Below are positions 1,316 through 30,930 of a stretch of 64,000 nucleotides of DNA, piece by piece. This DNA comes from Hymenobacter sp. DG25B (lineage in GTDB: Bacteria > Bacteroidota > Bacteroidia > Cytophagales > Hymenobacteraceae). The DNA lies in contig NZ_CP010054.1 of the NCBI RefSeq assembly GCF_000801315.1, positions 3,658,001 to 3,722,000 on the forward strand. Reading direction: 5' to 3'. The notes beneath the pieces are model-generated. The model saw only the letters and a program-made list of their open reading frames with translations. It was not told the DNA's origin and ran no database searches. Positions within the stretch are counted from its first letter, which is position 1. Every line of letters begins with the position of its first letter. The position numbers and the translations under genes were made by a program.

Positions 1316-2404
1316 ATGTACTCTTCTCCCCGCTTCCCTCCCTACATTACCCGCTCGGCGCTGGCTTTTCTAAGTCTGATGGCTGTAACGGCCTGCGACC
1401 CGGATACGGATACCCCCGACCCCACGCAGCCAGCCGATGTATTTATTGTGAATGAAGGCGGCTTCAATAAAGGCAATGCCGGCATCAGCAGCTTCAGCAC
1501 CGCCAGCCGGCAGCTGATGAATGTAAACCAGTTTCAAACGGCCAATAACCGGCCGCTGGGTGATGTGGCACAGTCGATGACGGTTGTGGGCACCCGGGGC
1601 TACATTGTAGTCAATAATAGCAACAAGCTGGAGGTAGTCTCCATGCCTGATCTAAAGGAAGTTGCTACGGTTACGGGCCTGCAGCTACCCCGGTATTTTG
1701 TAGCGGCCTCGGCCGATAAGGGCTACGTAACAGAGTGGGTGGATTTTGGGGTGTCGGGCCGCGTGGCCGTCATCGATTTGAAAACCAATACCATTCTGAA
1801 AACCATTACCACGGGCATTACCCCGGAAACTATGCTGCTGGTAGGCAACAAGCTGTATGTAGCCAACAACGGCGAAAACACCCTCACCATCATTAATACC
1901 CTGACTGATGAGGTGGCGGCCACCGTAACCGTGGGCGACTCCCCTACCAGCCTGGTGCAGGACCGCACCGGCCGGGTATGGGTTTTAAACAGCGGTATGG
2001 TTGCCTACAACCCCGATTACACCGAGGACTATGAACATACCACGCCCGGCTCTCTGGTGAGTTTTGACCCGCAGAGCCCGACTGCGCAGACCCGCCGTAC
2101 GTTTGCCTCTAACCAGGTGCGGCCCCAAAAGCTGCTGATTGATTTTACTGGCACCACCTTGTATTTCAGCAATGGCGCGGCAGTGTTCCGCATGAATACC
2201 ACCGATGCTGCTTTGCCCACCACGCCCATTATACGGCGCCGGTTTTATGGGCTAGGGCTGGACCCGCGCGACAATACGTTGTATGGGTCGCTGGAGAATT
2301 TCAGCGGGCCTACCAAGTTCATTCGCTACCAAAGCACCGGCACGCCTATTGACTCCTTTGCGGTGGGCGTGGGCGCTAACAGCTTCGTGTTTTACCGGCA
2401 GTAG
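1316..2404 (+). CDS. YncE/DUF5074-type beta-propeller surface lipoprotein (BtuG-like)
   Basis: This is a 362-residue protein with a lipoprotein signal peptide: hydrophobic stretch about 14-26, lipobox VTAC with the lipidated Cys at 27, then an acidic and Pro/Thr-rich tether. The mature part has repeated propeller blades, for example VFIVNEGGFNKGNAG near the start, LYVANNGENTLTIINT in the middle and VWVLNSG further on, as in YncE/DUF5074 proteins. In Bacteroides the surface lipoprotein BtuG is a seven-bladed propeller of this type that binds cobalamin with high affinity and hands it to the adjacent BtuB receptor. Here the gene follows a TonB receptor with a 24-base gap and is surely co-transcribed. 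A strong bidirectional terminator follows at 2423-2465. Lipoprotein and fold are well supported; corrinoid binding is inferred from synteny. Confidence 0.85.
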   Translation: MYSSPRFPPYITRSALAFLSLMAVTACDPDTDTPDPTQPADVFIVNEGGFNKGNAGISSFSTASRQLMNVNQFQTANNRPLGDVAQSMTVVGTRGYIVVNNSNKLEVVSMPDLKEVATVTGLQLPRYFVAASADKGYVTEWVDFGVSGRVAVIDLKTNTILKTITTGITPETMLLVGNKLYVANNGENTLTIINTLTDEVAATVTVGDSPTSLVQDRTGRVWVLNSGMVAYNPDYTEDYEHTTPGSLVSFDPQSPTAQTRRTFASNQVRPQKLLIDFTGTTLYFSNGAAVFRMNTTDAALPTTPIIRRRFYGLGLDPRDNTLYGSLENFSGPTKFIRYQSTGTPIDSFAVGVGANSFVFYRQ

Positions 2405-2422
2405 CCGCTGGTATAGCCCAAC

Positions 2423-2465
2423 AAACAAAGCGCCCTTCCATAGCAAATAGAAGGGCGCTTTGTTT
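2423..2465. terminator. Bidirectional intrinsic terminator
   Basis: A perfect 16-base inverted repeat (2423-2438 with 2450-2465, loop of 11) has an A-rich left flank and a T-rich right flank. It lies between the convergent YncE-like gene and the small lipoprotein gene and can end transcription from both sides. Confidence 0.85.
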
Positions 2466-2481
2466 ATAAGATACTGAAGCG

Positions 2482-2754
2482 TTAATCGGCGATACCGTCG
2501 TTGTTACGGTCTTTAGCCTGGCCAGCGCGGTCGTATATTTCTTTGCCGGTAAGGCGGCGGGTGGTGTCCTGGCTGGTGCCGTTGGTAGAAGCGGCGGTAG
2601 AAGTGGGGTTTGCCTCCGTGGGGTCGTGGCTTTTATCTACGCCGCGTTCTACGTTGGTGTCGCCGGTATTATTGCCGGTGCCGCAGGCCACCAGGGTAAA
2701 GGCAAACAGAAACGCGCCGGCAGCCGTGCGCAGGAATGGGAGGGAGAAAGTCAT
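2482..2754 (-). CDS. Small hypothetical lipoprotein with EF-hand-like C-terminus
   Basis: The preferred start is the ATG at 2754, because it places a normal lipoprotein signal peptide at the N-terminus: hydrophobic stretch, then LVAC with Cys at residue 24. The upstream in-frame start at 2790 would put 12 extra residues before it. The 90-residue product is mostly a polar, Asn/Thr/Asp-rich and probably disordered tail. Its last residues, DRNNDGIAD, match the spacing of a calcium-binding EF-hand loop (DxNxDGxxD), so the protein could bind calcium through its extreme C-terminus, though a single half-motif is weak evidence. No enzyme domain is visible. It stands alone, convergent with the BtuG-like gene. 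Function unknown. Confidence 0.7.
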   Translation of the reverse strand: MTFSLPFLRTAAGAFLFAFTLVACGTGNNTGDTNVERGVDKSHDPTEANPTSTAASTNGTSQDTTRRLTGKEIYDRAGQAKDRNNDGIAD

Positions 2755-2956
2755 AGGGCGAAATAGTAAGGCGGGTTGTGAGACAGGCAAGTATAGTGCT
2801 TCCTACGGCTGCCTGTTGGCCGGGTTTACGTGGCGCCCGTTGCCCGGGGAAAACGGAGGTAGCCACCTAATGTTTTCTGCCAATTACCACCCACATTTTT
2901 AGTCGTTGGTGGGCCGTGGTGCGTACACCCATGCAACCCGACTTTGGCAAATCTGG

Positions 2957-2964
2957 TATATTTG
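2957..2964 (+). promoter_or_regulatory. Bacteroidota -7 promoter element
   Basis: TATATTTG matches the Bacteroidota -7 consensus TAnnTTTG exactly and ends 4 bases before the ATG at 2969. No clear -33 TTG is at the usual distance. If used, it would give an almost leaderless transcript for the small membrane protein gene. Confidence 0.45.
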
Positions 2965-2968
2965 TTTC

Positions 2969-3316
2969 ATGCCGAAGCACCGCTCCTCTCTTTCCAGGTT
3001 CCGCCCTGCTTCCCCCTTGCTGCGACACGCCGCCTTGGTAGCTGGTATAAGTCTTTTCTTAGCCGTACTACTGGTAGCGTATGTTTTTGGCTTTCGTAAT
3101 GCGTTCTTGTTCAGAACTTCTGCTGCTTTTTTCGTACTTTTCTGTCTCCTGGCCGTAACGTTCCTCGTTGTTGTGCCATTCGTGAATTGGGCTGCCAGCA
3201 ACTGGTTTGGTGCGGGCTGGCAGAAAACCCCAATTGCACCTACACGCCGTAGCCGCCCTACTGTTTCCGCTGCCCCGCGGAAACAAACACCCAGCCGTTC
3301 GCGGTTGGCTCCTTAA
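2969..3316 (+). CDS. Small two-helix membrane protein, function unknown
   Basis: The start is placed at the ATG at 2969 rather than the upstream start at 2906, because an exact -7 promoter element sits directly in front of it and the extra 21 residues have no recognisable features. The product has 115 residues: a basic N-terminus (residues 1-20), two hydrophobic helices about 21-42 and 48-72, and a basic, Pro/Arg-rich C-terminal tail of about 35 residues that would lie in the cytoplasm if both ends are inside. No known domain is recognised. It is followed after 31 bases by the AraC-type regulator gene, so the two may share a transcript. Whether it is translated as drawn is likely but not certain. 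Confidence 0.6.
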   Translation: MPKHRSSLSRFRPASPLLRHAALVAGISLFLAVLLVAYVFGFRNAFLFRTSAAFFVLFCLLAVTFLVVVPFVNWAASNWFGAGWQKTPIAPTRRSRPTVSAAPRKQTPSRSRLAP

Positions 3317-3347
3317 AATCATTAACGCCCAACTTACCTTCTACACT

Positions 3348-3920
3348 GTGAAAACAACCCGCTTGCACATCAAGAACATGGTTTGCCCACGTTGCGTTAG
3401 TGCCGTGCGCCACCTCCTGGAGCAGGCTGGCTATCGGCCGGCTCAGGTAACACTCGGAGAAGCAGTATTGGCGAAAGACACGCCTGCCGACCCCAAAGAA
3501 GTAGCACCGCTGCTTCGCGAAGCAGGCTTCGATGTATTAATGGACCGGGCGGAACAGCTCACCGAACAAATCAAGACCGCCCTGGCCGAGTACCTGGAGC
3601 ATTTGCGTACGGCGCGCATGCCCCTTACCACCTCAGCCTTTCTCACGGACCGTTTTGCGGCCACCTATTCTCACTTGAGCAAGGTGTTTTCGCGCACGGC
3701 TAATCTTACCATTGAGAAGTATCTGATTCGCATGAAGATTGAGCGGGTGAAGGAGCTGCTCAGCTATGGCGAGTTGACCCTGGGCGAAATAGCCGAGCAA
3801 ATGCGCTACAGCAGCGGCCAGCACCTGAGCAACCAGTTCCGCCAGGTAACCGGCCGCTCCGTCAGCGAATTCCGCCGCGACCTGATGCCCAAGCGCATGG
3901 CGCTGGATAAAATAGCGTAA
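3348..3920 (+). CDS. AraC-family regulator with N-terminal CxxC (HMA-like) metal-binding head
   Basis: The GTG at 3348 is the likely start: it begins a 190-residue protein whose first residues, KTTRLHIKNMVCPRC, resemble the metal-binding strand and loop of heavy-metal-associated (HMA) domains, with Cys13 and Cys16. Starting further upstream adds 47 residues without domain character. The C-terminal half (about 90-185) is an AraC/XylS double helix-turn-helix: IEKYLIRMKIERVKELL, then LTLGEIAEQMRYSS, then the signature region LSNQFRQVTGRSVSEFRR. AraC proteins normally bind DNA as activators. The CxxC head suggests that a soft metal such as copper is the signal. The next gene encodes a Met/His-rich outer-membrane protein, which fits a copper response. 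The DNA-binding assignment is firm; the metal is inferred. Confidence 0.85.
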   Translation: MKTTRLHIKNMVCPRCVSAVRHLLEQAGYRPAQVTLGEAVLAKDTPADPKEVAPLLREAGFDVLMDRAEQLTEQIKTALAEYLEHLRTARMPLTTSAFLTDRFAATYSHLSKVFSRTANLTIEKYLIRMKIERVKELLSYGELTLGEIAEQMRYSSGQHLSNQFRQVTGRSVSEFRRDLMPKRMALDKIA

Positions 3921-24842: not shown

Positions 24843-24880
24843 ATAAAAATTCCCCGGCTATTTGACCTGCCGGGGAATAG
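24843..24880 (-). terminator. Intrinsic terminator of the sigma/barrel operon
   Basis: A perfect 10-base stem (24849-24858 with 24869-24878) is followed on the minus strand by a run of T (A run at 24845-24849 on the plus strand). It lies after the stop at 24958 and in front of uvrB. Confidence 0.8.
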
Positions 24881-24957: not shown

Positions 24958-26805
24958 CTAGTGGGCGGCAACCACCGGTTTCAAGCCAAACTCTACGCTG
25001 GCCTCCAGCCCCACAGAGTAAGGCCGGTTCTGATGCCAGTAAGATTGGGTAGGCTCATTGTTCAGGGTGTTCAGGCCGGTTTCGGCGGCCGGCCCCAGGG
25101 CTACCAGCCAGGTAGCACCCACCGGGCGGTACTGCATTCCAGCGCCACCCCGCAACGAGGCCAGCACATGCCGATAAGGCGAGTCCGGGGAGCTCAGCTT
25201 ATATGCTTTCTCACCAATCAGGTTGGTGTTTTCAGGGGTCAGCCGGCTATTAAACAGCAGGTTTACCGCCGCCCCCATGCGGGCATATAACGACCAGCCC
25301 ATTTTATCGGCCGCGCTATATTGCAGCGACACCGGCAGGCCTGCCGTGCGGTAGCGGTAATGCGTTGTCTGCGGTTCTGCCAGCGCCGTCAGGTCCGTAG
25401 CCATCTGGGTCCGGATGCGGGTCTTCTGCTGCAAGTCACCGGTAAAAGTGGCGGGCATATTAGGTGCAAGGGCTGCATAGGAGGTCTGGGAAGAAGCGCG
25501 GTATTCGGCGGCCTCTACCCCGGCCGTGGCACTCCAGCGGCCAGCCAGCCGCTTGCGGGCCATTAAAGCAACCCGCTGCCCCAGGCCAGCCTGTAAGTTA
25601 TGGCGATACTCGGTGGCAGCCTCTTCATACGTCTGGGCATTTACGCGGGCCGTAGCCGAAGTTTTCTGAAAAGTAGGCGTGCTGAGCGGACCCCGGGAGA
25701 AATTAACGTTAGGGTTGAAGGAAGACAGGTTGTGGCCACCACCAAAGCTCCAGCCACCTTTTTGCGCTATTTTCTTTTCGTCCTTCGCGGCCAGCTCATC
25801 GGCCCAGGCCAAGGCAGTAGGCGTGTAGGTTTGCTCCAGGGAAGCAGGCAGCGCCGCCAAAGCATTATCCAGCGCCGCCGGGCGGGGGGCCAATGCATTT
25901 ACCTGCTCCGTAGCGGTTGCTTGCATAGCCGTAGTGGTGGCCGGGGTGGTGGCTGCGGAATTGGCCGCTGCTGGTGCAGTTACTGACGCCACCGTTGGCG
26001 CAGACGTATTCGGGTTAAGAGTAGCCAGCGCAGCACCAGTAGCCGGTACCGCATTAGTGGCTGCAGCAGAATTTTGCTGTCCGGTCACTTCAGCCTGGGG
26101 GCGGGTGGTGCCGTTAGCAGCATAGCCCAGGAAGGAGTTGCGACCCTGGACAGACTGGCTATTCGTTTCGGTTTGAGGTGCAGTGGTGGTTCCGGAGGCC
26201 GTGTTGGCCGCCTGCGTATTAGTTGGCAGTTCGCGGTTGCTGCTGGCGGTTACGGCCGCCGTAGCAGTACGCTTAGGCGCACCGGCATCCGCTAAGCTTT
26301 CCTTGCCTGCTGCATTCGGGGTACCATTGATAATTAGAGGTTGCGAGGAGCTACCGGAAGCCGCTACCGTGGCGCCGGCTTGCCGGGCAGAAGTTGTATT
26401 ACCGGATGCAGCAGCTGCATTGCTGGATACCGATGGGCGGGCGCTGTTGGCAGCAGGTGCCTGGGCGGCCAGTTGCAGCTTGCGGCCAGAGTTGCCGTTT
26501 GCATTCTCAGATGATTCCTGAAAATTCTGCAGGCCGGCAGCCAGCTCGGCTTCGTGGTTGCTGGTGAAGTGCAGGGCAAACCAGCCCCCCATACCCAGCA
26601 TAAAGAGCACGCAGGCAGCCGCTACCCAGCGGTGTACCCGGAGCCGCTCGCGGAAGGTTTCATTTTGCTGTACTACCAGCTCATGGTCCAGCTGCTCCCA
26701 CAGGTTGGCCCGGGGCTGCAGTTCAGCTTCCTCAAATTTTTGGCGAAACAGGTACTCCAGGTCGCCCTTCTGGGGGGAGGTGGGCTTATCGGCTGAAGGT
26801 TCCAT
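24958..26805 (-). CDS. Fusion protein: cytoplasmic head, one TM helix, long Ala/Thr/Asn-rich linker, outer-membrane barrel-like domain
   Basis: This 615-residue protein has a cytoplasmic, charged N-terminus (1-58, with LEYLFRQKFEEAELQPRANLWEQL), a single hydrophobic helix at about 62-82 (VAAACVLFMLGMGGWFALHF), a very low-complexity linker of about 240 residues rich in Ala, Thr, Asn and Ser (about 95-335), then a C-terminal domain (about 345-610) with beta-barrel strands such as GWSFGGGHNLSSF, LQAGLGQRVALMARKRL, PVSLQYSAADKMGWSLYARMG and a last strand SVGLEASVEFGLKP. The N-terminal part resembles an anti-sigma factor in position: the gene overlaps the upstream ECF sigma gene by 20 bases. It may span the inner membrane, the periplasm and the outer membrane in one chain. 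Architecture is visible; the role is inferred. Confidence 0.8.
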   Translation of the reverse strand: MEPSADKPTSPQKGDLEYLFRQKFEEAELQPRANLWEQLDHELVVQQNETFRERLRVHRWVAAACVLFMLGMGGWFALHFTSNHEAELAAGLQNFQESSENANGNSGRKLQLAAQAPAANSARPSVSSNAAAASGNTTSARQAGATVAASGSSSQPLIINGTPNAAGKESLADAGAPKRTATAAVTASSNRELPTNTQAANTASGTTTAPQTETNSQSVQGRNSFLGYAANGTTRPQAEVTGQQNSAAATNAVPATGAALATLNPNTSAPTVASVTAPAAANSAATTPATTTAMQATATEQVNALAPRPAALDNALAALPASLEQTYTPTALAWADELAAKDEKKIAQKGGWSFGGGHNLSSFNPNVNFSRGPLSTPTFQKTSATARVNAQTYEEAATEYRHNLQAGLGQRVALMARKRLAGRWSATAGVEAAEYRASSQTSYAALAPNMPATFTGDLQQKTRIRTQMATDLTALAEPQTTHYRYRTAGLPVSLQYSAADKMGWSLYARMGAAVNLLFNSRLTPENTNLIGEKAYKLSSPDSPYRHVLASLRGGAGMQYRPVGATWLVALGPAAETGLNTLNNEPTQSYWHQNRPYSVGLEASVEFGLKPVVAAH

Positions 26806-27466
26806 TGGTCCGGTGAGCGTCGAGGCGCTCTAGTTTGTTTTTCAAAATAACCCGTGCCCGGGCGTACTGCGACTTGCTGGTGCCTTCGGAAATGCCCATC
26901 AGCTCCCCAATTTCTTTGTGGCTATAGCCTTCAATAGCAAATAGGTTGAACACCATCCGGTAGCGCGGGGCCAGCTCCTGAATCAGGGTCAGAAGCTCCT
27001 CAAAGCCATAATTGGCTAAGGTAAATTCTTCATCGGCCAGGTCTTCGGGGTATTCGCCTTCGCTTACTGCTACCAGGTGCGCGTTGCGCCGGTGCTGGCG
27101 CAGGGCAGCATTCACCATGATACGGCGAATCCAGAATTCCAGTGGGCATTCCCGCCTGAATTTTGGCAGATTTTTAAACACCGTCAGAAAGCCTTCCTGC
27201 AGTACGTCTTCGGCCTCAAACGTGGTTTGGGCATACCGCATGCAAACGGCCATCATCCTGGCAGAATATCGGTCGTAAAGCTGCTTTTGTGCCAGGCGGC
27301 TACCAGCCAGGCAAGCATCAAGCAGTTCAGACTCGCTCAGGGTGTGTGGTGAGGAGAGAGGACGCACAGGGGCAGTGGCAGGGCGGAGAATCGGCTCGGC
27401 AATGGCCACCGGCGCAAGCAGGTTGTCCAGAACCGACCCGCCGAAGGTAGGTAATAGCGCGCTCAT
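26786..27466 (-). CDS. ECF-type RNA polymerase sigma factor
   Basis: Start ATG 27466 (MSALLPTF) is chosen over a TTG four codons upstream. The 226-residue protein has an N-terminal extension (about 1-45), sigma region 2 (LYDRYSARMMAVCMRY, then EAEDVLQEGFLTVFKNLPKF) and region 4 with a helix-turn-helix (LAPRYRMVFNLFAIEG, then YSHKEIGELMGISEGTSKSQ). This is a group 4 (ECF) sigma factor. Its last codons overlap the start of the next gene, which encodes a membrane-anchored protein with a barrel-like domain, so the two are translationally coupled. ECF factors are usually silenced by such membrane partners until an envelope signal arrives. The signal here is unknown. The upstream region is long and gene-free. 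Confidence 0.95.
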   Translation of the reverse strand: MSALLPTFGGSVLDNLLAPVAIAEPILRPATAPVRPLSSPHTLSESELLDACLAGSRLAQKQLYDRYSARMMAVCMRYAQTTFEAEDVLQEGFLTVFKNLPKFRRECPLEFWIRRIMVNAALRQHRRNAHLVAVSEGEYPEDLADEEFTLANYGFEELLTLIQELAPRYRMVFNLFAIEGYSHKEIGELMGISEGTSKSQYARARVILKNKLERLDAHRTNGTFSR

Positions 27467-28038
27467 GCTACTAACCAACCACTACGGCTGCCTCCCTTCA
27501 CTGGGTAGATAGAAGGTATAAAGCCACTAAAATTGCTCCGGGTGCTAGGCTGGGGCATACGCTGGGGCTACTGGAAAAAGTGAATAAAAGGGAATTGACT
27601 CCCGCCCTGTATTCTGAAGAGTACAGCGGGTTAGCCAAGCGTTGCATGCCGTTTGCAGAAATATATTAAGAAGGCGCTATTTACCTTATTACCAACTATA
27701 TATTTACAAAATTCAGCTTATAATCTAAGTAACCTGGCGTAATTCAATTAAATGCAGGCGCGGGTAGGCTGAGGTGTATTAGTTAGGTTATGGTAAGGCT
27801 GTGTTCTTGATATAATCTACGAAGGAACCAAGCGCTATGCCAGCGTCGCCGGCTTCCTATAGCATTCGATAAAAGTGCCTGTAAACTTTCGGTTAATTTT
27901 CTGCTGAGGCGAGCTGACAGGAATGAATAAGGGGCTACCAGCGTGTCGGTTTTCCGAGAAAACATTCCGGTTAAACCGCTAGGAAATCAAGCGCGAAATG
28001 CTACATTTCCTATTCATAACCTGCACACCTCCTGCAAC

Positions 28039-28198: not shown

Positions 28199-28362
28199 CA
28201 CCCGGAAAAAAATTAAACTCATCGGTTAAGAAGGAAGCACAAAATAAAAGCCGTGGAATGCAACCCACAGCTGCGTTTTGCCATCTGTGCAGGAGTTGTT
28301 GAGATTATCCGGGAGATACACTGCAGGCCACTTGCTCTAACTGCGCTTACACCTAACATGCT

Positions 28363-30930
28363 ATGAAACACCTTTCCGCGTTGCTGCTGGTCGGCACTAC
28401 GTTCATTACTCATATGGCTGCGGCGCAAAGCACGCCCCCGGCAGCTACCGGCGCAACGCGCCCGGCGGGCACAGCCCCGGCTATTACGCTGGCTCCGGCC
28501 GCAAAAGGCACCGGCCGCATCAGCGGCACTGTGTTAGATGCCACTACCAAGCAGCCGGTGGAGTTTGCCACCATTACGGTGCTGCCTCCTGTGGGCGAGC
28601 AGCCCCTGGATGGCACTGTTGCGGATGAGAAAGGCCGTTTCGTGCTGAAAGGCCTGGCAGCCGGGTCTTACCGCTTGTCCATCAGCTTTATTGGCTACGG
28701 CAGCCAGGTGCAGGCTATTTCCCTGGCAGAAGGCAAAATGAGCCTCGACCTGGGCACGGTAAACCTGACCTCCCAAGTGAAGCAGCTGAATGAAGTAACC
28801 GTGACGGGTGAGCGGCCCGTGGTGGAAAGCAAGCCTGACCGCCTGGTGTACAACGCCGCCCAGGACAACACCAACAAAGGCGGCACCGCCGCCGACGTGC
28901 TGCGCAAAGCCCCTATGGTGAGCGTGGACCCCGATGGCAACCTGCAGCTGCGCGGCTCCGGCAACGTGCGCGTGCTCATCAACGGCAAACCATCCTCCGT
29001 AATGGCCGGCGACATTGCCGAAGCCCTCAAGCAGCTGCCCGCCGACCAGATTAAAAACGTGGAGGTGATTACCTCCCCTTCGGCTAAGTATGATGCGGAA
29101 GGCTCAGCCGGTATCATCAACATTGTCCTGAAGGAAAATAACCTGCAGGGGGTGAATGGCAACGTGGGCCTGGCCGTGGGTACCCGCAACTCCAACGGTA
29201 ACCTGAGCCTGAACGCCCGCAAAGGTAAGTTTGGGTTTTCCTCCTCGGCCAATGGCTGGATGCACTACTCCCCTGGCGTGCAGGAAGTAGACCGCGAAGA
29301 CCGGGGCGTGGTAAGCGCCGACGGCATTACCACCACGGGCCGCCTGATGCAGCGCAACGAAGGCCGCTCCAACGGTGGTGGCGGCAATGCCCGCATCGGG
29401 TTGGAATATGAGCCAGCTACCAACCACACCTTCAGCCTGTCGCTGAACGGCAACATGTTCCAGCACCGCAACAACGCGGATATCTATAACACCTACACCC
29501 TGGATGCCGGCGAGCCGGATAACAGCAACCCGCTGTTCGGTAACTACACCCGCGACTATAATCAGGAGTTTAAAATCCGGAGCTACGACCTGACCGGCAC
29601 CTACACCCGCACCTTCGGGCCGGGCAGCCGCCGCGAGTGGTCGGTGCTGGCGCAGCACAACCGCAATAACAACAACCGCTTCTACGATGTAGACCAGTTT
29701 CCCCTGGACTACACGGGCAGCACGCCTACGTTCCAGGAATATAGCCCCAACGTAGCCAGCAACCAGGAAAACACCCTGCAAACCGACTACGTGCACCCCA
29801 TTGGCGAAAAGCAAACGGTGGAGTTTGGGGGTAAGCTGATTCAGCGGCGGGTGGAAAGTGACTTCCGCGTGAGCCGCACCGATCTGAATACCGGCGAGTT
29901 TGCCGAAGTGCCCAGCCTGACCAACCAATACACCTATGATCAGGATGTAATGGCCGGCTACGCTACCTACGCTACCAGCCTGGGTAAGAAGTACAACGTG
30001 CGCCTGGGGGCCCGCGTGGAGCGCACCGATCTGGAGGGTGACTTTGCCAGTCAGGACCGTCCGTTCAGCCTCACGTTTACCAATCTGCTGCCCAACGTGG
30101 CCCTTACGCGCAACCTCAAGCAGCAAGGCTCCACCATCCGCCTGAGCTACTCGCGTCGCATTCAGCGCCCCAGCATTTTCTATCTGAACCCTTACCGCAA
30201 CGAAACCGACCCGCGCAACATTTCGGAGGGCAACCCGGAGCTGGACGCCGAATTCACCGACAATTACGAGGTGAACTGGAACACCTTCGTGAAGGGCTCC
30301 GTCATCAACATCTCGGCCTATTCCCGCCAGACCAACAACGCCATTGAGCGCATTTATCGCACCGATAATCAGGGCCGGGTGGTTTCCACCTTCGGCAACG
30401 TAGCCCGCAACCAGACCTACGGCACCAACCTGTTCGGCTCAGTAAAGCCCTTGCCCAAATGGGACATCAGCGGCAACATTAGCCTGTTTTACGTTTTCCT
30501 GAAAAGCCAGGCGCTGAACACCAGCAACTCGGGTTTTGTGTATTCGGCCAACATCAACTCCGGCTACAAGTTTGAGAAGGGCTTCAGCCTACAGTTCTTC
30601 GGCATGCTGAACTCGCCGCGTATTCAGCTGCAAGGCAAAAACTCGCCCTGGCAGATGTACTCCATTGGCCTGCGCAAGGAAATGCTGAAAGGCAAGGCCG
30701 ATCTGACGCTGAACGCCGACAACCCCTTCTCCCGCTACATCAAGCTGGATAACGACTTCGACAACGGCCGTTCCCGCTCCACCAATACCACTTACGTGTA
30801 TAACCGGGGCGTGCGCGCCGCCTTCAGCTACCGCTTCGGCAAGCTGGAGAACAAGCCCAAGCGCCCCGCCCGCAGCATCCGCAACGACGACCAGAAGCAG
30901 GGCGAAAGCGGCGGCAACGGGCAGCAGTAG
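28363..30930 (+). CDS. TonB-dependent receptor-like outer-membrane protein with CarboxypepD_reg domain (OMP_b-brl_3 type)
   Basis: The 855-residue protein starts with a signal peptide (MKHLSALLLVGTTF, cut near HMAAAQ). Residues about 50-140 are a carboxypeptidase-regulatory-like beta sandwich (GRISGTVLDATTKQPVEFATI, FVLKGLAAGSYRL), followed by the plug domain (about 145-260: LNEVTVTGERPVVESKPDRLVYN, VRVLINGKPSSVM, VEVITSPSAKYDAEGSAG) and a large barrel to about 830 ending AAFSYRFGKLE. The C-terminal 25 residues are polar. The layout is that of the outer-membrane proteins with an OMP_b-brl_3 barrel common in Bacteroidota, which lack a known import substrate. It ends at a large palindromic repeat that also serves as terminator. 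Confidence 0.9.
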   Translation: MKHLSALLLVGTTFITHMAAAQSTPPAATGATRPAGTAPAITLAPAAKGTGRISGTVLDATTKQPVEFATITVLPPVGEQPLDGTVADEKGRFVLKGLAAGSYRLSISFIGYGSQVQAISLAEGKMSLDLGTVNLTSQVKQLNEVTVTGERPVVESKPDRLVYNAAQDNTNKGGTAADVLRKAPMVSVDPDGNLQLRGSGNVRVLINGKPSSVMAGDIAEALKQLPADQIKNVEVITSPSAKYDAEGSAGIINIVLKENNLQGVNGNVGLAVGTRNSNGNLSLNARKGKFGFSSSANGWMHYSPGVQEVDREDRGVVSADGITTTGRLMQRNEGRSNGGGGNARIGLEYEPATNHTFSLSLNGNMFQHRNNADIYNTYTLDAGEPDNSNPLFGNYTRDYNQEFKIRSYDLTGTYTRTFGPGSRREWSVLAQHNRNNNNRFYDVDQFPLDYTGSTPTFQEYSPNVASNQENTLQTDYVHPIGEKQTVEFGGKLIQRRVESDFRVSRTDLNTGEFAEVPSLTNQYTYDQDVMAGYATYATSLGKKYNVRLGARVERTDLEGDFASQDRPFSLTFTNLLPNVALTRNLKQQGSTIRLSYSRRIQRPSIFYLNPYRNETDPRNISEGNPELDAEFTDNYEVNWNTFVKGSVINISAYSRQTNNAIERIYRTDNQGRVVSTFGNVARNQTYGTNLFGSVKPLPKWDISGNISLFYVFLKSQALNTSNSGFVYSANINSGYKFEKGFSLQFFGMLNSPRIQLQGKNSPWQMYSIGLRKEMLKGKADLTLNADNPFSRYIKLDNDFDNGRSRSTNTTYVYNRGVRAAFSYRFGKLENKPKRPARSIRNDDQKQGESGGNGQQ

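Follow-up and report, generated by a model that had tools for sequence, protein, structure and literature searches.

How can a sigma factor in the cytoplasm be told of events at the outer membrane? The question is raised by two overlapping genes in a 64,000-nucleotide stretch of Hymenobacter sp. DG25B (contig NZ_CP010054.1, positions 3,658,001 to 3,722,000; this whole stretch is called the window below). The first gene encodes an extracytoplasmic function (ECF) sigma factor. The second encodes a protein, called here the fusion protein, in which a short head, a transmembrane (TM) helix, a disordered linker and a β-barrel follow each other in one chain. The first-pass annotation of the window had proposed that this chain would be an anti-sigma factor that carries an outer-membrane sensor of its own. 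Both this reading and the anatomy behind it fit the tests described here, but the design has already been published, for the Dma proteins. It is highly probable that the operon consists of an ECF sigma factor and a trans-envelope anti-sigma factor of the Dma plan, acting by the mechanism set out below.

The open reading frames (ORFs) and the structure model confirm that the sigma gene overlaps a gene with this order of parts (Table 1). The sigma product matches Sigma70_r2 (E 1.4e-14) and Sigma70_r4_2 (E 2.3e-17) of Pfam as well as TIGR02937, and its ORF could be extended to a TTG at 27478. In the model of the fusion protein the predicted local confidence (pLDDT) is below 50 across nearly all of residues 100-327. 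The barrel fold is backed by the model and by structural fold matches, and the inside/outside alternation is strong in four of the eight strands, moderate in two and weak in two. OMP_b-brl_2, with a score below the cut-off, is the only family in the Pfam listing up to E 1, a listing from which the HMMER filters discard most matches above E 0.1. The full fusion protein had no match among solved structures up to E 1. An improbable alternative is that the same head and TM helix carry a barrel that never enters the outer membrane, either as a domain in the periplasm or tethered to the inner membrane, or as unfolded bait for a periplasmic protease. It is favored by the low Pfam score, by the two strands that hardly alternate and by the location of the barrel being a prediction. 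The gene overlap, topology, disorder, barrel fold, conservation and the promoter-like boxes at three loci, described below, come from sequence and prediction.

Table 1. Features of the sigma/fusion locus in the window, and of related loci (L001, L002, L003, L016; locus coordinates) of the same genome
Feature	Position	Strand	Basis or remark
Dma-type fusion protein gene, 615 aa	24958-26805	-	ORF, homologs, profile, structure model
Head, cytoplasmic (predicted), residues 1-58	26632-26805	-	Alignment A1; motif LxxLFRxxxxxxExxPxxxxWxxL
Transmembrane helix, residues 59-81	26563-26631	-	Hydropathy and charge; helix in model
Disordered linker, residues 82-347 (~265 aa)	25765-26562	-	pLDDT, composition, variability
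OmpA-like β-barrel, 8 strands, residues 350-608	24982-25758	-	Model and fold matches
ECF sigma factor gene, 226 aa	26786-27466	-	ORF list; Pfam and TIGR02937
Overlap of sigma gene and fusion gene, 20 bases	26786-26805	-	ORF coordinates
ECF-type promoter-like site TGCAAC-N20-TCTT	27617-27646	-	150-180 bp upstream of sigma ATG
Terminator-like hairpin (intrinsic type), 10-bp stem then T run	24845-24878	-	-18.4 kcal/mol, z -3.8
TonB-dependent receptor-like gene, divergent	28363-30930	+	PF14905, plug
L003 split system	sigma 1246-1824, head-TM-tail 1805-2620, barrel 2634-3839	+	ORFs; PF13568
L001 pair	sigma 3191-3745, next gene 1606-3225	-	35-base overlap; barrel 22.9 bits, below Pfam cut-off
L002 pair	sigma 1401-2000, next gene 1975-3408	+	26-base overlap; barrel 21 bits, below Pfam cut-off
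L016 sigma	1972-2568	-	Close relative of L003 sigma; followed by 417-aa membrane protein

In the FecI-FecR-FecA system an ECF sigma factor is likewise controlled by an inner-membrane anti-sigma factor that reports on the outer membrane. There, however, the sensor and the relay are separate proteins, whereas the fusion protein has no match to the FecR domain (Pfam, E up to 1), and the contrast with FecR-type systems that had been drawn at the outset holds. The closer relatives are the Dma proteins of Bacteroides thetaiotaomicron. They are described as chains that start with an anti-sigma domain at the N-terminus, continue through a TM helix and a long disordered tether, and end in a barrel; their domains reach from the outer membrane to the cytosol, and their genes adjoin ECF21 sigma genes (PMC13088901). 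The fusion protein likewise has one TM helix after the head, then an extended disordered tether, and a barrel at its C-terminus, and shares with the Dma family the order of parts, the adjacent ECF sigma gene and the phylum. The sigma/fusion pair is classed as Dma-type by this architecture, compared with Dma1 and Dma2 at the level of their published description. The founding Dma study reportedly appeared in PNAS in 2024. The pair is a further member of an envelope-spanning architecture already in print, and is kept throughout the Hymenobacteraceae genomes searched.

A profile (A1) of the fusion protein and 35 homologs matches all 100 Hymenobacteraceae genomes drawn, from all six genera; P0004, one of the 36 other homologs, has no head and was left out. 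Mean identity to the fusion protein is 60% in the head, 54% in the TM helix and 48% in the barrel, but 21% in the linker. Because the head, TM helix and barrel are conserved but the linker sequence is not, the linker has the appearance expected of a tether. The named close relatives of the fusion protein are Hymenobacter proteins. A stop was found inside the matched stretch in 12 of the 100 genomes; in G005 (L120), the one genome checked, the match overruns the true gene end. At G003:C1:4406130-4407787, in one relative, the gene appears split into two parts that lie in different open frames; the larger match contains a TGA, and this is perhaps a broken copy.

The same fusion was also sought in other Bacteroidota and was found: related sigma genes there are followed by genes of the same plan or of variants of it. 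Relatives of the sigma factor at E 1e-20 or better occur in 132 of the 149 genomes that were sampled from the class. Sixty regions were picked from the listed relatives, leaving out sites near contig ends. A same-strand ORF of at least 244 residues stands at the end of the sigma gene in 59 of them (the exception is L096), and the next ORF has a hydrophobic segment of at least 1.5 in 56 (exceptions L069, L084, L096 and L118). When 65 partner proteins, from the 60 regions plus five proteins of the own genome, were compared with Pfam (E up to 0.01; one protein may match several families), 23 matched OMP_b-brl_2, 10 OMP_b-brl, 15 CHU_C, which is a type IX secretion signal, and six PKD; at least 17 matched neither a barrel model nor CHU_C. 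The best 80 loci were kept from a scan of named genomes with a sigma alignment. A next ORF is present in 79 of these (none in L161; cut or short in L132, L148 and L177), and Pfam matches in the other 76 were 26 to OMP_b-brl_2, 12 to OMP_b-brl and six to CHU_C. No record title among the best 80 names another phylum, L122 being titled 'bacterium' only. A missing row in a VIA-align search excludes nothing.

The homology comparison covered proteins of the Dma plan from Parabacteroides, Tannerellaceae and other Bacteroidales. Within the order Bacteroidales, with a Tannerellaceae sigma (L191) as the query, a relative at E 1e-40 is found in 83 of 149 genomes. Twenty-two regions were sampled (L204-L225; 21 from these 83 genomes, the other from G248). 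In 21 of the regions the sigma gene has a partner ORF that encodes a hydrophobic segment (cut 1.4), 19 partners having 384-474 residues and those of L205 and L206 being shorter; L215 runs to the contig end, and the open ORFs there were left uncounted. A profile of 14 Bacteroidales partners has Parabacteroides/Tannerellaceae proteins annotated as 'PorT family' or 'porin family' among the best 120 of 689 matches. Furthermore, the Hymenobacter barrel profile matches a 14-protein Bacteroidales barrel profile (98.4%, E 4.7e-15), a further likeness to the Dma family. The model of a Parabacteroides member (mean pLDDT 65, predicted template modeling score (pTM) 0.48) contains helices at residues 5-20, 26-34 and 44-71, the last including the hydrophobic segment, disorder at 97-192 and barrel strands up to 410, the C-terminal ones with a pLDDT of about 90. 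As modeled, it has the same order of parts as the Hymenobacter fusion protein.

In a tree that took 74 of the 87 pair sigmas (out: L065, L070, L074, L076, L079, L081, L096, L097, L099, L111, L114, L120 and L215), these 74 lie on one branch with one of the 11 other ECF sigmas of the own genome, L016 (support 100/99; the bootstrap was unsettled, and these values are rough). L016 appears to be an orphan of the pair-sigma branch with no head-TM partner. The branch also holds Bacteroidales sigmas that precede Dma-like genes. An 861-residue open frame of G152 was considered as a Dma3-like sigma-barrel fusion and rejected: the sigma ORF there is 367 residues long because its N-terminal part is overlong, and the partner is a separate gene behind it.

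Does the head recognize the sigma factor? The partner heads of related sigmas share the pattern F...L...E..P....W..I...L, which resembles the head motif of the fusion protein. Over 66 of the 74 pairs, sigma and head distances correlate with an r of 0.42, a value reached by 0 of 5000 shuffles. Because this correlation is confounded by species relationships, we rely on the swapping of heads among paralogous pairs within genomes, which gave a mean r of 0.21 compared to 0.50 observed; the observed r was reached in 41 of 5000 shuffles (18 rows, eight genomes). This lends modest support to the predicted pair-specific binding of head and sigma. The swap test also speaks against the idea that the fusion protein is a tether between the two membranes, or a structural protein, to which the sigma gene is a mere neighbor. 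Although the head contains no recognized anti-sigma domain, the 20-base overlap is difficult to accommodate in that scheme, as is the finding that a head-TM protein comes after the sigmas of this branch regardless of whether its C-terminus carries a barrel, a sorting tail of the type IX secretion system (T9SS) or no such module. We regard it as very improbable.

A separate barrel gene was found behind a short head-TM protein in seven of the ten second-next genes scanned (L003, L062, L064, L104, L110, L118 and L119). Six of these barrels are over the Pfam cut-off (PF13568), that of L119 scoring 24.5 bits vs 27, and six of the seven, all except L110, have a hydrophobic N-terminus. Because the barrel is a separate gene in these loci, fused and split forms are suggested to do the same job, with barrel and head tied functionally. 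Head-TM proteins of 246-265 residues at eight loci (L062, L064, L152, L171, L172, L178, L185 and L192) share a conserved C-terminal peptide of the type ITGxNLGxxKxKK; six of the eight are from named Mucilaginibacter or Pedobacter records. This tail might dock on a protein encoded by the neighboring gene, which is a barrel in both loci tested, L062 and L064.

The next question is what the sigma factor transcribes. Its operon most likely comprises the sigma and fusion genes only, because the hairpin and T run lie between the fusion gene and the next gene, uvrB. Aligned DNA upstream of Hymenobacter sigma genes yielded the box TGCAAC-N19/20-TCTW. Twenty other Hymenobacter genomes were compared, and TGCAAC-N19..21-TCT precedes the sigma gene in 18 of them (not L359 and L363), with clearly diverged spacers. 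Of 84 survey sigma genes, the own one included, 19 have the box in the 300 bp upstream (0.23 expected from shuffles), as do 17 of 78 named sigma genes (0.17 expected); survey loci L079, L081, L120 and L215 and two of the best 80 named loci were left out of the scan. Most survey sigma loci are without the exact TGCAAC box, and in the own genome the 300 bp before the sigma genes of L001, L002, L003, L019 and the orphan L016 contain none. A site TGCAAC-N19-TCT at 28259-28287 (+), before the receptor-like gene, was rejected; it is kept in none of four relatives with that gene and is probably due to chance.

In the own genome (4.36 Mb), besides the site at the sigma gene, strict-box sites start 46 bp before uppS and 120 bp before an htrA gene. 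One more lies about 130 bp before the gene of a CarboxypepD_reg-like protein, and for the remaining two no gene begins nearby downstream in the same orientation. Pfam recognizes at the box loci uppS, BamA (four POTRA stretches and Omp85), two successive OmpH proteins and a trypsin-PDZ protease (htrA). The exact box precedes uppS(-bamA-ompH-ompH) in 27 of 29 Hymenobacter loci and htrA in 14 of 30, the own loci included, and 13 more htrA loci have it with one mismatch. Shuffled htrA upstreams contain it exactly in 0.1% and with one mismatch in 7.6% of cases, and the mirrored pattern is absent from both the uppS and htrA sets. Counted on both strands, there are 14 boxes in the 30 htrA loci, 28 in the 29 uppS loci, 20 in 20 sigma loci and none in 155 kb of 18 other loci of the own genome; the mirrored pattern occurs five times in all fetched loci. 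Because the spacer differs at htrA (mean identity 52%), it is the two boxes themselves that are kept there. From this pattern it is very likely that the Hymenobacter sigma factor transcribes uppS-bamA-ompH-ompH and htrA, the boxes presumably being read by the own sigma factor rather than another.

Because the box precedes the sigma gene, uppS-bamA-ompH-ompH and htrA, a counterpart of E. coli sigma-E is suggested. Bam, Skp and DegP are classical targets of sigma-E in the sigma-E/RseA/DegS system, and the predicted Hymenobacter targets resemble them. Unlike that system, the Hymenobacter operon most likely has two genes with no separate relay, and the barrel is within the anti-sigma chain. The predicted targets also differ from those of the Dma proteins, since Dma1 is reported to act through nigD1, and Dma2 on polysaccharide utilization loci and vesicles (PMC13088901). 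In the open-licence literature searched, no Dma-type pair was seen to be connected with bamA and htrA.

The proposed mechanism is as follows. The head of about 58 residues would retain the sigma factor at the inner membrane, and the TM helix would lead the chain into the periplasm. The disordered linker would span the periplasm, and the OmpA-like barrel in the outer membrane would serve as sensor and anchor. A change in the outer membrane, or failed placement of the barrel, would alter or remove the head and so free the sigma factor, which would then transcribe its own operon and, in Hymenobacter, uppS-bamA-ompH-ompH and htrA. Sigma binding by the head, outer-membrane insertion, the direction of signaling and the nature of the signal are what we infer. 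Given the box before bamA, ompH and htrA, the signal in the Hymenobacter lineage is most likely stress in outer-membrane assembly. The main rival on this point is that the Dma-type pair senses an external ligand, e.g. a glycan or a metal. Glycan sensing is hypothesized for Dma2 of B. thetaiotaomicron (PMC13088901), but the targets predicted here are bamA, ompH and htrA and not sugar-use genes. A ligand is possible, though we would not expect it; as it is compatible with the core of the Dma-type explanation, the two are not exclusive.

Since its C-terminal barrel must be inserted by the β-barrel assembly machinery (BAM), the anti-sigma factor could itself be the stress gauge of barrel assembly, and the Hymenobacter pair the missing sigma-E of Bacteroidota. 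This extension is tentative and may well prove wrong. While BAM works, the chain would be anchored at both ends and the sigma factor held. When BAM fails, the barrel would be left in the periplasm and the chain would fall to a protease or lose its grip, raising bamA, ompH/skp and htrA.

Several points weigh against the account given here. It is an unusual topology for one chain to combine a helix in the inner membrane with a barrel inserted by BAM, two of the eight barrel strands have almost no inside/outside alternation, and outside the barrel the fusion-protein model is middling (mean pLDDT 59, pTM 0.46). The head profile found nothing credible among solved structures (E 0.027 and 0.42, unrelated names), and the comparison of Hymenobacter and Bacteroidales profiles aligned the barrels only, so that homology of the heads was not recovered. 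The strict N20 box is not enriched in the own genome, with six sites vs 12 for the mirrored pattern, and the exact box is missing at 16 of 30 htrA (13 with one mismatch), two of 29 uppS and two of 20 sigma upstreams. Because the spacer at uppS is also conserved (90%), another constraint may act there, and only about 17 bp separate the end of the uppS box from the start codon. The predicted regulon is built on box conservation at three loci, and head-sigma binding, the location in both membranes and the regulon are all deduced from sequence.

The own genome contains two further pairs of a sigma gene and a gene for a long head-TM protein, L001 and L002. Elsewhere, head-TM proteins at ten loci (L071, L075, L078, L089, L092, L100, L102, L106, L113 and L200) end in a T9SS sorting domain and have no barrel; TIGR04131 is over its cut-off in seven of them (not L071, L092 and L106). 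A chain that is held in the inner membrane but tagged for exit through the T9SS could monitor the state of this system. The pattern TGCAACC-N16-CRTCT has 22 sites each in G231 and G162 (L071, L095), the mirrored control having 0 and 1, and one to three sites in each of six other genomes. An ORF begins soon after the site in 18 of 20 G231 regions fetched (L325-L344), and a T9SS type A sorting domain is over the cut-off in six of nine G231 ORFs scanned, which were chosen mostly for secretion-like ends. The T9SS-tail pair may control T9SS cargo. In Flavobacterium psychrophilum a class of ECF-type promoters has been reported together with T9SS genes and a single sigma/anti-sigma pair (PMC9723704). 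At L086 (1856-2821, +) the gene for PorP/SprF, a T9SS membrane protein (E 1.8e-67), lies after that of a short anti-sigma-like head-TM protein.

As the architecture has been published, the pair will be no surprise to specialists, and the predicted regulon is what is added. DegP/Q-like and BepA-like proteases increase in Phocaeicola vulgatus in response to a BamA-directed peptide, and the available part of that report names no dedicated regulator (PMC8546649). For Hymenobacter, the Dma-type pair offers a concrete candidate for such an assembly-stress regulator, since its box precedes both bamA and htrA. If the anti-sigma factor is indeed its own stress gauge, one protein would sense the assembly of outer-membrane proteins without a separate receptor, a relay or a peptide signal from unfolded outer-membrane proteins. 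The boxes kept at bamA and htrA make it testable how Bacteroidota sense trouble in outer-membrane protein assembly.
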